Source of the DNA: an uncultured Clostridia bacterium
GTDB taxonomy: Bacteria > Bacillota > Clostridia > Oscillospirales > JAAYOS01
Length of the DNA: 64,000 nt
Direction: 5' to 3'
NCBI GenBank assembly: GCA_947631015.1
Contig: CANRJS010000001.1
Location: forward strand, 31,561 to 95,560
Shown here piece after piece: positions 13,109 to 18,538 of the stretch (the stretch's first letter is position 1; the number at the start of each line of letters is the position of its first letter). The position numbers and the translations under genes were made by a program. Under the pieces are notes generated by a model. It was not told where the DNA came from and did no database searches. It saw nothing but the letters and a program-made list of their open reading frames with translations.

Positions 13109-13917
13109 CTTTCGCTCTCCCTTCCGTCGAGCGCGGCGTGCGAGTTCTCCACGAGCCGCTTCAGGTCAAAGTCGCCGCTCTCGCCCTCGCATGAGAGGTA
13201 AGCAAGATACTCTATGTTGCCCTCCGGGCCCCGCACAGGAGAGAAGTCCAGCCCCTTCACGGCAAATCCCGCGTCATGAGCGTGAGTGAGGAACGCTTCG
13301 AGGACCTCGAGGTGCGTCTCCGGGTCGCGGACGACGCCCTTCTTTCCCACCTTCTCGCGCCCCGCCTCAAACTGGGGCTTCACGAGCGCGACGACGGTTC
13401 CTCCGTCCCGGAGGAGCGGCTTCACGCACGGAAGGACTATCCTGAGCGAAATAAAGCTCACGTCTATCGACGCGAAGTCGAGCGGTTCGCCTATCATCTC
13501 CGGTGTGACGTTACGGATGTTCGTCCGCTCCATGACGACGACGCGCTCGTCCGTTCGGAGCGACCAAGCGAGCTGTCCGTAGCCGACGTCTATCGCATAG
13601 ACTTTCGCCGCGCCGTTTCGGAGCATACAGTCGGTAAATCCTCCGGTGGATGCGCCGACGTCCGCCGCGCGGACGCCCTCGAGCTTCACAGGGAAGACGG
13701 TGAGCGCCTTTTCGAGCTTCAACCCTCCACGGCTGACGTAAGGTATCGCGCGGCCGCGGAACTCCACCTCCGCGTCCTCCGGCACGGACGCGCCGGCCTT
13801 GTCCACGCGGACGCCCGCGACAAACACCTCGCCGCTCATTATCGCGGCACGGGCGCGCTCGCGGCTCTGAAATATCCCGCGCTCCACGAGGAGCACGTCA
13901 AGCCTCATTTTTGCCAC
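13105..13917 (-). CDS. tlyA: TlyA family rRNA (cytidine-2'-O)-methyltransferase
   Basis: S4-like N-terminus RLDVLLVERGIFQSRERARAAIMSGEV; ADVGASTGGFTDCML. Confidence 0.92.
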   Translation of the reverse strand: MAKMRLDVLLVERGIFQSRERARAAIMSGEVFVAGVRVDKAGASVPEDAEVEFRGRAIPYVSRGGLKLEKALTVFPVKLEGVRAADVGASTGGFTDCMLRNGAAKVYAIDVGYGQLAWSLRTDERVVVMERTNIRNVTPEMIGEPLDFASIDVSFISLRIVLPCVKPLLRDGGTVVALVKPQFEAGREKVGKKGVVRDPETHLEVLEAFLTHAHDAGFAVKGLDFSPVRGPEGNIEYLAYLSCEGESGDFDLKRLVENSHAALDGRESER

Positions 13918-15728
13918 AGCGACACCTCCGCTATGCTACCGGCGTCGATGCCGTAATATTTTTCGAGCTCCGCGACGGGGCCGTGAGTGCAGAACCTGTC
14001 GCCGAGGTCCACAAGCCTTATCCCGAACGTCTCACCGGCGCACGCCGCTTCCGCCGCGAGGCGCTGCCCGGCGGAGCCTGCCTTGACGCAGTCCTCCGCC
14101 ACGACGAGCCGACCCGTCCTCCGCGCGGATGCAAACACCGTTTCGGCGTCGAGCGGCGAGAGAGTATTCAGCTTCACTATCTCGGCGGAGACGCCGCGCT
14201 TTTCGAGGATACCAGCGGCGTCAAGAGCGTTTGTGAGCATGTGTCCGTAGGCGGCTATCGTCACGTCCGAGCCGCTTCTTATGACCTCCGCCGCACCCTC
14301 GGAAACTCCCGTGAACCTGCCCTCGTCCCCACCTCGGGGATAGCGTATCGCGCTCGGCGCGCCGCAGGAGAGCGCGAGGCGCAGATACTCCCGCGTCTCC
14401 GCCGCGTTTGCCGGGCAGTAGATCCGGACTCCCGGAGCCTGCGCGAGAAAGCCGGGGTCGAAGATGCCGTGGTGCGTCGCGCCGTCCTCGCCGACGAGCC
14501 CCGCGCGGTCGACGGCTATGACGACCGGCAGTTTTTGCAGAGCGACGTCGTGCAGCAGCTCGTCATAGCTTCTCTGCGCGAAGGTGGAGTAGACGGCAAA
14601 CACCGGCTTCATCCCCGCAGCCGAGAGCCCCGCTGCCATCGTCATGGCGTGCTCCTCCGCTATGCCCACGTCGAAGAAGCGCTCGGGAAACTCCCGCGCG
14701 AACTTCTCAAGCCCGGTCCCGCTCTCCATTGCCGCCGTGATGGCGCATATTCTGCTGTCCTCACGCGCGAGCTCGACGAGCGCGTCCCCGAACGCGCGGG
14801 AAAAGCTCATCCCCGGCTTTGCGCTGCCCGCCGGAGCGACGCTGTGGTACTTCTCCGGGTCGTTTTCCGCAGGGCCGTATCCCCTGCCCTTGACAGTGAC
14901 CGCGTGTATCAGCACGGGTCCGTCGTAGCTCTTTGAGAGCTCGAGCAGCCGGCAGAGATTTTTCACGTCATGCCCGTCCACCGGGCCGAGGTAGGTAAAT
15001 CCCATGTCCTCGAATATATTCGAGCGGATGATAAGGCTCTTGAGAAACTGCTTGACGCCGTGGACGAAGCGGTACAGGGCGTGTCCAAAGCGTCCCCTGC
15101 TGGTGGCGGCGCGGAATTTGTCCTTCGCGCGCATGTATCCCGGGCGGAGGCGCAGTCTTCCGAGCATCTGCTCCACGCCGCCGACGTTGTGCGCTATCGA
15201 CATCTCGTTGTCGTTCAGTATGACTATGAGGCGCTCGCGGGACTGTCCCGCGTCGGTAAGCGCCTCATATGCAAGTCCGCCGGTGAGAGCCCCGTCGCCG
15301 AGCAGGGCGACAACGTTGCCGTCCTCCCCCTTCAGCGTCCTCGCCCGCGCCATGCCGAGCGCGGCGGACACCGAGGTGGAGGCGTGGCCGGCGCGGAACG
15401 CGTCATGCTCGCTCTCGGCGGGGTCGGGAAAGCCGGAAAGTCCTCCGAAGCGGCGGAGAGTGTCGAAACGCTCGCGGCGTCCTGTGAGGAGCTTATGCGC
15501 GTATGACTGATGGCCTACGTCGTAGACTATCTTGTCCTTCGGGGTCGAAAAAACACGATGAAGAGCAACTATGATCTCCACCGCGCCAAGACTTGAGGCG
15601 AGGTGCCCGCCCGTGCGGAGCACCCCGTCCGTTATTTCACGGCGCAGCTCGGCACAAAGTTCGTCAAGCTGCGCCATATCCAGCTTTTTTACGTCTTCGG
15701 GGGAATGTATCCCTTCGAGGATGGACAC
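13905..15728 (-). CDS. dxs: 1-deoxy-D-xylulose-5-phosphate synthase
   Basis: VYDVGHQSYAHKLLTGR, GDGALTGGLAYEAL, YLGPVDGHD, DRAGLVGEDGATHHG. Confidence 0.96.
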   Translation of the reverse strand: MSILEGIHSPEDVKKLDMAQLDELCAELRREITDGVLRTGGHLASSLGAVEIIVALHRVFSTPKDKIVYDVGHQSYAHKLLTGRRERFDTLRRFGGLSGFPDPAESEHDAFRAGHASTSVSAALGMARARTLKGEDGNVVALLGDGALTGGLAYEALTDAGQSRERLIVILNDNEMSIAHNVGGVEQMLGRLRLRPGYMRAKDKFRAATSRGRFGHALYRFVHGVKQFLKSLIIRSNIFEDMGFTYLGPVDGHDVKNLCRLLELSKSYDGPVLIHAVTVKGRGYGPAENDPEKYHSVAPAGSAKPGMSFSRAFGDALVELAREDSRICAITAAMESGTGLEKFAREFPERFFDVGIAEEHAMTMAAGLSAAGMKPVFAVYSTFAQRSYDELLHDVALQKLPVVIAVDRAGLVGEDGATHHGIFDPGFLAQAPGVRIYCPANAAETREYLRLALSCGAPSAIRYPRGGDEGRFTGVSEGAAEVIRSGSDVTIAAYGHMLTNALDAAGILEKRGVSAEIVKLNTLSPLDAETVFASARRTGRLVVAEDCVKAGSAGQRLAAEAACAGETFGIRLVDLGDRFCTHGPVAELEKYYGIDAGSIAEVSLWQK

Positions 15729-15757: not shown

Positions 15758-16390
15758 TTATTTGTGTTTATGTCTTCCGAAGGTGAAGGGACGCTTGACA
15801 AAGTACACAACGCGCCCCGCATAGTGGACTATCATCGTGCTGTAATTTATCGCGAGGCTCTTGCCGACGGCCTTTCCGCCGACCGTGAGGGCGGAGATCA
15901 TTCCGCTCATCAGGAGGCTCACGATAACATTCGGCAGGCTGAAGCTCGCGACAAGACGCGCGGCGATTATGGCGCCTGTAGCGCCGGAGATGATGCCCGA
16001 GATATCTCCCACAACATCGTTGCAGAAGGAGGACACCTTGTCCGCCGACCGCACGAGCGCGAGCGCTTCGCGCGCGCCGCTCACCTTGCGGGCGGCCATG
16101 GAGTTGAGCGGCTTTTCGTCCGCCGCAGTTACCGCAACGCCTATAACGTCAAAAACTATACCGAGCAGTATGAAAAAACCGAGCACACAGAACGCGACTA
16201 TGTCTCCCACCCCGCGCAGAGCTTCGTTTGCGACAAACGACATAGTCATGGATATCGCCATCGTCACAAAGAAAAGGGTTATTATCCAGCGCGGGTTGAA
16301 GTTTTTCTTTGATGACGGCGGCTTCTTTTTCTTGTCGGTAAGCCGCGCGTCGCTTCGTTTCGGTTCGGTGCTACTTCGGTCGCCTTCCAT
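15758..16390 (-). CDS. OapA-like (OLE-associated) small DUF21-like multi-pass membrane protein
   Basis: 210 aa, Lys/Arg-rich N-terminus then several TM segments; DUF21-like VTAADEKPLNSMAARKVSGAREALALVRSADKVSSFCNDVVGDISG; lies between dxs and the ~640-nt RNA interval. Confidence 0.75.
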   Translation of the reverse strand: MEGDRSSTEPKRSDARLTDKKKKPPSSKKNFNPRWIITLFFVTMAISMTMSFVANEALRGVGDIVAFCVLGFFILLGIVFDVIGVAVTAADEKPLNSMAARKVSGAREALALVRSADKVSSFCNDVVGDISGIISGATGAIIAARLVASFSLPNVIVSLLMSGMISALTVGGKAVGKSLAINYSTMIVHYAGRVVYFVKRPFTFGRHKHK

Positions 16391-16455
16391 AAAATATCCG
16401 CTCCTTGAATCAAAAAAGTTACAGGTTCCGTCCCGCCGCAGGGCGGTGGGATACG

Positions 16456-17097
16456 CATAATAAAGTGGCGGCAGCGAAAGTAAATCTTACGGCTTAGGTC
16501 CGGTCTGATTTCCACGGAGGGCTGCCCCGCGTCGCCGCAGGGGGCGGTTTCCCTTTGAAGCCCTCGCCCAAAACGGGTACCGGATTACCACTTAGTCCGT
16601 ACTGCAATCCTCTCGCCGCCCCAGACATAAGTCTCGGACAGCCTAGGTGATTTCCACAGCAGGCAAACCGACTCTTAGCCTCTTTTGCAGGCATGATTTC
16701 TTCGAGCGATAACGAGTCCGCCGCGGCCGGCGTCGAACTCGCCTGATCCCGGATCCGCCATGCCCACTCAAGGCAGGCTACGCTGCACACAGCGCTACAC
16801 GGGCCGCGAACGGCCTTTCGCACCGCAATACAGGTTTCACCCCGCCTCGTACCGATTACCCCGGGGCGCTTTCGCGCGTCCGATAGGAGTACGGCACAAC
16901 AACGGGTCTCCACGGAAACAGGGTCGGGGGATGCATGCCGTTGCAAGCCGCCCTGAAACCTTAACCCCCAGCATCCACCCCAGTCTGGGCGAAAGAAGCA
17001 AACACCAGGGACTTCATCGATGTGCCCTTCAACGGATTTTTAGGCCCGTCCTAGGAGCCGGCTGCTCTGACTAGGATACTGCGCCACCATTATGCAG
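16456..17097 (-). ncRNA. OLE RNA-like large structured non-coding RNA
   Basis: ~640 nt without a plausible CDS; 5' GCATAATGGTGGCGCAG can pair with 3' CTGCCGCCACTTTATTATGC; own sigma-A-type promoter; ispA-RNA-oapA-dxs context. Confidence 0.85.
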
Positions 17098-17103
17098 TTT
17101 CTT

Positions 17104-17132
17104 ATTATAACACAAACCTCCCCTTTATTCAA
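17104..17132 (-). promoter_or_regulatory. SigA-type promoter of the OLE-like RNA
   Basis: On minus strand TTGAAT (17132-17127)-N17-TATAAT (17109-17104), 7-9 nt before the predicted RNA 5' end. Confidence 0.8.
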
Positions 17133-17173
17133 GGGGAGGAATAAATTCTGTTTAACGGATCAAATAGCTGCGG

Positions 17174-17644
17174 TCACATAAAGAAACCCACGGCGACGCC
17201 GAGGAGCATCCCCACGAACACCTGGAGCGGCGTGTGCCCTAGCAGCTCCTTCATCTGCCGTCCGAACAGCTCGGGGGACTGCTTGTCCGCGCTCTGTATC
17301 ATGACGTTGAGGACGTGGGAGTGCTCCCCCGCCGCGCGGCGGACGTTCACCGCGTCAAATATCACGATGAACGCGAATATCGCGGATATGCCGAACTCGA
17401 CGCTCTGTATCCCGGCGACGCGCGCGACTGCGACCGTCGCCGCGCAGACGCAGGCGGAGTGCGAGCTGGGCATCCCGCCCGAGCCGACAAAGAACCGCCT
17501 CCACACGAATTTCTTCAGGCGGAGCGACTCCACTATTACCTTCGTCACCTGACCGATAAGCCATGCCGCGACGGCGGCGTTTATTATCCTGTTGCCGGTG
17601 AGAAAGCTCACCGCCGCTGACAAAGACAGATACGGAATAAACAT
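17174..17644 (-). CDS. Divergent PAP2 family membrane protein (YuiD-like)
   Basis: RFFVGSGGMPSSHSACVCA and FDAVNVRRAAGEHSHVLN motifs. Confidence 0.88.
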   Translation of the reverse strand: MFIPYLSLSAAVSFLTGNRIINAAVAAWLIGQVTKVIVESLRLKKFVWRRFFVGSGGMPSSHSACVCAATVAVARVAGIQSVEFGISAIFAFIVIFDAVNVRRAAGEHSHVLNVMIQSADKQSPELFGRQMKELLGHTPLQVFVGMLLGVAVGFFM

Positions 17645-17668: not shown

Positions 17669-18538
17669 CTAGAAGCTGCGCCGGGTGAGCTCTTCGGCGA
17701 GCGCCGTAAGCTCCTCCGAGCCGGGTATGTCTCTTATCGCGTCCGCCGCCCCGTCGGTGAGGGAACGGATAAGCCTTTCACATTCCTCGCGGCCGAGCTC
17801 TGAGGCAAACGTGCTCTTTCCGCGCCTCGCGTCCGCGCCGGTCGCCTTGCCGAAGCTTTCGGCACTGCCGACGACGTCGAGCAGGTCGTCCATAACCTGG
17901 AACGCGAGGCCAACGCCCTCCGCGTACTTCCGCGCCGCCGCGCGTCCGGCGGCGTCCGCGCCGCCGAGTATCGCGCCCATCTCGCAGGCGGCGGAGATGA
18001 GCGCGCCGGTCTTGAGGCGGCAGGTGGTCTCGAGCCGCTCGCGGGAGGCGCGCCGCGTCTCGTTCTCAAGGTCGAGGAGCTGCCCGCCGCACATCCCCTC
18101 GGGACCGGCGGCGCTCGCCGCGACGCGCAGAGCCTCCAGTCCCACCGACGGACATTCCGCCGCCGCGAGCGCCATCTGCTCGAAGGCAAAGGTCTGGAGC
18201 GCGTCGCCCGCGAGCACGGCGACATTCTCGCCGAACGCTATGTGGCAGGACGGTTTTCCGCGCCGCATATCGTCGTCGTCCATGCAGGGCAGGTCGTCGT
18301 GGATAAGCGAGTAGGCGTGTATGCATTCCAGGGCGCATGCGAATTTCATCGCAAGCTCTTTGTCACCGCCGAACAGCTCGCAGAACTCGAGGAGCATCAC
18401 CGCGCGGAGGCGCTTTCCACCGTTCAGAACGCTGTAACGCATCGCCTCGTACAGGCGCGACATCTCGCCGCCCTCCGGCAGGAGCGCGTCAAGCGCCGCG
18501 CTCACCTCGCGCGCGAGCGCGTCACGGTGCGCGCTCAT
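17669..18538 (-). CDS. ispA: Polyprenyl synthetase (farnesyl/geranyl diphosphate synthase)
   Basis: NGGKRLRAVML, HDDLPCMDDDDMRRGKPSCH (FARM) and FQVMDDLLDV (SARM). Confidence 0.95.
   Translation of the reverse strand: MSAHRDALAREVSAALDALLPEGGEMSRLYEAMRYSVLNGGKRLRAVMLLEFCELFGGDKELAMKFACALECIHAYSLIHDDLPCMDDDDMRRGKPSCHIAFGENVAVLAGDALQTFAFEQMALAAAECPSVGLEALRVAASAAGPEGMCGGQLLDLENETRRASRERLETTCRLKTGALISAACEMGAILGGADAAGRAAARKYAEGVGLAFQVMDDLLDVVGSAESFGKATGADARRGKSTFASELGREECERLIRSLTDGAADAIRDIPGSEELTALAEELTRRSF

Follow-up and report, generated by a model that had tools for sequence, protein, structure and literature searches.

A long gap in a minus-strand gene cluster of an uncultured Clostridia bacterium is, with a probability that we put at about 97%, a genuine OLE RNA gene, having its own promoter and followed by oapA; by analogy, the RNA would act as a membrane ribonucleoprotein. 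The gap occupies positions 16391-17173 of the 64,000-nucleotide stretch of contig CANRJS010000001.1 analysed here (the window), between minus-strand open reading frames at 15758-16390 and 17174-17644, in agreement with the original prediction of a gap of some 640 nucleotides in such a cluster. This analysis establishes to which family the RNA belongs and what structure it has, as well as the sequence of its promoter, the presence of partner genes and the lack of an MpfA-type protein.

Identity and extent of the RNA

The suggestion that the gap encodes an OLE homologue was assessed by Infernal comparison with the Rfam OLE model, which yielded a full-length match:

16449-17103, minus strand: OLE RNA (RF01071), full length, model positions 1-616; cmscan score 435.4 bits, E-value 1.6e-124, with covariation in support

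The gathering score of RF01071 is 50, and this is the sole Rfam family within the window to exceed its own gathering score. A sub-threshold L20 leader at 1071-1198 was treated as a chance match, there being no ribosomal operon downstream. The limits given by Rfam are slightly wider than the 16456-17097 originally proposed. Like the Rfam members from H. halodurans, C. acetobutylicum and C. botulinum, the window copy has the full-length structure and its own promoter, and the conserved loops and joining regions of the family are also present. It differs from them in an insertion of 22 nucleotides beyond the model at OLE nucleotides 287-308 (approximately 16796-16817); this G+C-rich segment varies in both length and sequence among relatives.

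Secondary structure and covariation

The window copy contains 154 Rfam base pairs, 140 of them canonical, and the counts below were made on these 140 alone. In an alignment of the window sequence and 24 relatives (25 sequences), 90.7% of cells are paired, and both partners have changed at 96 of the 140 pairs. Pairing falls to 38.6-47.3% when the partner is slid by 1-3 columns in the same alignment, although part of this difference arises by construction, since the counted pairs were pre-selected as canonical in the window. The counts of changes on both sides are thus stronger evidence than the gap in paired cells, and the observed values were reached by none of 500 shuffles. The minimum-energy fold of the window OLE is only modestly better than those of shuffled sequences (z -2.1).

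It had also been proposed that the two extreme ends of the RNA can pair, an interaction lying outside the Rfam structure. This pairing is real: its inner 5 bp are paired in 96.8% of cells of the 25-sequence alignment, with changes on both sides at four of the five pairs, while the outer, A/T-rich 7 bp are paired in only 51% of cells. This end pairing is probably the terminal stem described in the literature.

Promoter and upstream hairpin

The near-consensus promoter noted earlier is found immediately upstream of the RNA, with 10 of 12 matches and a TG before the -10 box:

17104-17132, minus strand: sigma-70-type OLE promoter, TTGAAT-17-TATAAT
17117-17139, minus strand: terminator-like hairpin 3' of the DUF212 gene, with a loop that includes the OLE -35 box; its function is suggested by the sequence

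The promoter ends at 17104, which implies an OLE start near 17097, the boundary first proposed. A promoter-like pair of boxes (at least 9 of 12 matches) is found 5' of the RNA at 106 of 136 OLE loci, compared to approximately 20 expected from shuffled sequence. The hairpin has the stem CCTCCCC / GGGGAGG and the loop TTGAATAAA; the locus L130, from the same genus, has a comparable hairpin of altered stem sequence around a TTGAAA upstream of OLE.

Gene neighbourhood and OapA

On the minus strand, from upstream to downstream, the order is TsaD-like, xseA, farnesyl diphosphate synthase, DUF212, OLE, a 210-amino acid open reading frame, dxs, tlyA, NAD kinase, argR and recN. The nearest genes are:

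17669-18538, minus strand: farnesyl diphosphate synthase, a gene of the isoprenoid context (family searches)
17174-17644, minus strand: DUF212 / divergent PAP2 family gene, the upstream neighbour (PF02681, E-value 3.3e-42)
15758-16390, minus strand: oapA, encoding OLE-associated membrane protein A (210 amino acids)
13905-15728, minus strand: dxs, downstream of oapA (family searches)

The isoprenoid, xse, recN and argR context that had been expected is thus present around the window OLE, which shares dxs, recN, argR, xseA, a prenyl synthase and a downstream oapA with the Rfam OLE loci. As also anticipated, oapA lies directly downstream of the RNA. Homology of its product to OapA was established through OLE-adjacent open reading frames: homologues of the 210-amino acid protein, from many Bacillota, occupy the position directly 3' of the RNA at 118 of 123 OLE loci. 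The window protein shares with known OapA its place directly downstream of OLE, its hydrophobic segments and a weak CNNM match (E-value 0.0037), OapA having been described as a distant, CNNM-like relative of that family (PMC11332333). It was identified via these Bacillota homologues rather than via the H. halodurans sequence itself. Searches of Pfam and NCBIfam at normal thresholds placed the OapA candidate in no family, a PDB search gave chance matches only and a search of viral contigs found no relative.

Partner proteins elsewhere in the genome

Candidates for the other published partners are encoded away from the window OLE. A 97-amino acid open reading frame between map and infA has OLE-associated protein B (PDB code 7k9b) as its best PDB match, with an E-value of 3.3e-6; it was located by this synteny, a search with PF00467 (KOW) having found no OapB. 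The OapC candidate is a 94-amino acid L7Ae protein encoded between rpoC and rpsL, whose best PDB matches are L7Ae-like proteins of the YbxF type (E-value 1.3e-13), YbxF being OapC (PMC9723947). A gene for bS21, a further published OLE partner (PMC12054373), is also present in the genome. For comparison, approximately 60% of OLE carriers have OapB and approximately 45% have OapC (PMC11332333).

No CorC_HlyC (MpfA-type) protein was found in the host genome, while 11 of 14 control genomes gave a match. The host therefore fits the pattern of OLE carriers, which have zero or at most one protein of this type. MpfA, a CNNM-CBS-CorC_HlyC Mg2+ exporter, has been published as a possible functional counterpart, and proteins of its type are reported to be anti-correlated with OLE (PMC11332333), a relationship reproduced here within the order.

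Predicted contact sites for dimerisation and for partner proteins

Elements corresponding to published contact sites can be located in the window copy:

17035-17043, minus strand: A-rich loop of L4, CUAAAAAUC; published A-A dimer bridge B1 (PMC12286853)
17013-17021, minus strand: J4a/5, AUCGAUGAA; belongs to the OapC kink turn described in the literature, near the OapA site (PMC9723947)
16725-16728, minus strand: GGCC palindrome of L9.3, from sequence and cmscan alignment; published symmetric kissing loop, bridge B3 (PMC12286853)
16567-16577, minus strand: P12.2, a 4-bp stub lacking the usual GGNRAC cap (alignment)
16531-16536, minus strand: P13 terminal loop GGCGAC, intact; published OapB binding region (PMC12265935)

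The OLE dimer is held by an A-A bridge, B1, in L4 and by a symmetric GGCC kissing loop, B3, in L9.3 (PMC12286853). Both sequence elements, CUAAAAAUC and GGCC, are at the expected places, as read from the sequence. Of 133 complete OLEs, 129 contain AUCGAUGAA, a biased figure in that approximately 118 of them were fetched with a motif overlapping it.

The OapB binding region consists of P12.2 together with the P13 stem and loop (reviewed in PMC12265935), and here the window copy departs from the Rfam family. Its P12.2 forms only a stub of about 4 bp, with no GGNRAC cap, and the same holds for L135, L133 and L130, three loci of the same genus, and the reduction is common to the sampled genus down to 81% RNA identity. 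The cap is carried by most other OLE copies, although the true frequency of its loss is inexact, most of the other copies listed as capless being failures of the text pattern. In L129, from the same family, P12.2 bears a long insertion instead of a stub. Members of the genus retain the OapB gene as well as the P13 loop. With one element of its contact shortened in this way, OapB may bind differently in this genus. A tentative and rather unlikely further reading is that the genus has rebuilt OLE domain 2, losing the capped P12.2 while keeping OapB and the P13 loop, such that OapB would recognise P13 only.

The P6 arm, too, differs from that of H. halodurans OLE: the exact CCUCCU anti-Shine-Dalgarno mimic was not found in the order (OLE nucleotides 181-190 in the window), so that the bS21 interaction may differ. 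A related pattern was seen in only one of 66 parsed OLE copies, on which grounds the mimic may be lineage-specific. Its absence nevertheless carries little weight, because published mutants with an altered mimic retained bS21 binding.

Distribution among related genomes

Among the 59 genomes compared, all related to the host, 29 carry OLE, and an OapA homologue was detected in exactly those 29. CorC_HlyC proteins scoring over the cut-off are present in three of the 29 OLE-positive relatives and in 26 of the 30 that are OLE-negative. OLE is thus patchy in the order, always accompanied by OapA and largely exclusive of CorC_HlyC; the three genomes with both are G042, G048 and G053. One genome, G014, has two OapA homologues (C94:6614-7165 and C41:15710-16267), of which only one adjoins OLE. 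All sampled members of the genus keep OLE. An apparent loss of OLE and OapA in one of them, G004, was rejected since a contig ends inside the RNA. Three of 119 exact 18-mer matches, in Roseomonas (L080), Acidaminococcus (L043) and TA06 (L119), were put down to chance, a nucleotide profile detecting no OLE there.

Host and lifestyle

The host genome of 1.89 Mb, in 43 contigs, is 98% complete, and the window has a G+C fraction of 0.62, as befits the high-GC organism that was foreseen. Spore formation, also suggested earlier, is supported by the presence of Spo0A and SpoIVA genes, from which sporulation is likely. Two genus members, L052 and L096, are probably animal-gut metagenome bins, the latter from rabbit, and for this reason the host is probably no extremophile. 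A gut-dwelling, spore-forming, non-extremophile lifestyle is accordingly likely, the last two traits as the earlier description had it.

Alternative readings of the gap

Three other explanations of the gap were weighed. The original prediction saw only short open reading frames in it, and conserved coding potential was examined since the gap, instead of being an RNA gene, might encode a small diverged protein. Two open reading frames of at least 100 amino acids do lie within it, one of 150 amino acids on the minus strand (16494-16946) and one of 104 on the plus strand, but neither is conserved. The 150-amino acid frame is broken by frameshifts or stops in every tested relative, the same-genus L133 and L130 included, with the sole exception of the near-identical L135. 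Furthermore, changes track base pairing and the Rfam E-value is 1.6e-124. The frame breaks in close relatives already refute a coding region, and we assign it a negligible probability. Scarcely more probable is a decaying OLE pseudogene retained in the operon by chance. The truncation of P12.2 relative to the family consensus would suit such decay, but the same reduction is found genus-wide, down to 81% RNA identity, and OLE is kept by every sampled genus member, that of G004 being cut only by the contig end. The 140 canonical pairs of 154, the intact promoter and the presence of oapA, oapB and oapC candidates likewise speak against decay.

A little more credible, though still improbable, is that the RNA is one of the published shortened OLE variants (variant 1, TANB77-type) instead of a full-length copy. 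The gut-associated host, its small genome of 1.9 Mb and the reduction of part of the OapB region (P12.2) are all in keeping with variant 1, in which P7-P9 are short, the end of P13 is often lost and the clades concerned largely lack OapB and OapC (PMC11332333). Against this, the RNA matches the Rfam model over its full length, its P13 loop is intact and candidates for both OapB and OapC are present; alignment to the full-length model revealed neither shortened P7-P9 nor loss of the P13 end. A genuine, full-length OLE RNA gene thus remains our preferred reading.

Proposed mode of action and significance

Studied OLE RNAs form a membrane-associated, dimeric ribonucleoprotein connected with Mg2+, cold, alcohol and energy stress (PMC12265935, PMC12286853, PMC11332333, PMC12054373), and it is from this literature that we infer dimerisation, membrane location and function for the window OLE. 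By analogy, the RNA of approximately 640 nucleotides would fold into two domains and would dimerise through the A-A bridge in L4 and the GGCC kissing loop in L9.3. OapA would be bound at the membrane, while the kink turn near P5, P13 and P6 would receive OapC, OapB and bS21, respectively. The resulting membrane ribonucleoprotein might then tune the stress response, notably to Mg2+ load but also to cold, alcohol and energy stress.

The value of the new copy for the OLE covariation model, as implied by the original prediction, was overstated: 2,822 OLE hits in Bacillota, gut clades included, are already published (PMC11332333), so that one extra copy changes the model little. The occurrence of OLE in gut clades is likewise already published, the novelty here being a small lineage-specific change, that in P12.2. 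Taken alone, the window OLE opens no new question. OLE is among the largest structured bacterial RNAs, and the search around the window copy independently reproduces, within one order, the co-occurrence of OLE with OapA and its anti-correlation with MpfA. The window copy itself combines a complete set of partners (OapA, OapB, OapC and bS21), without MpfA, in a high-GC and probably gut-dwelling genus, and its truncated P12.2 provides a natural test of how much helix OapB requires.
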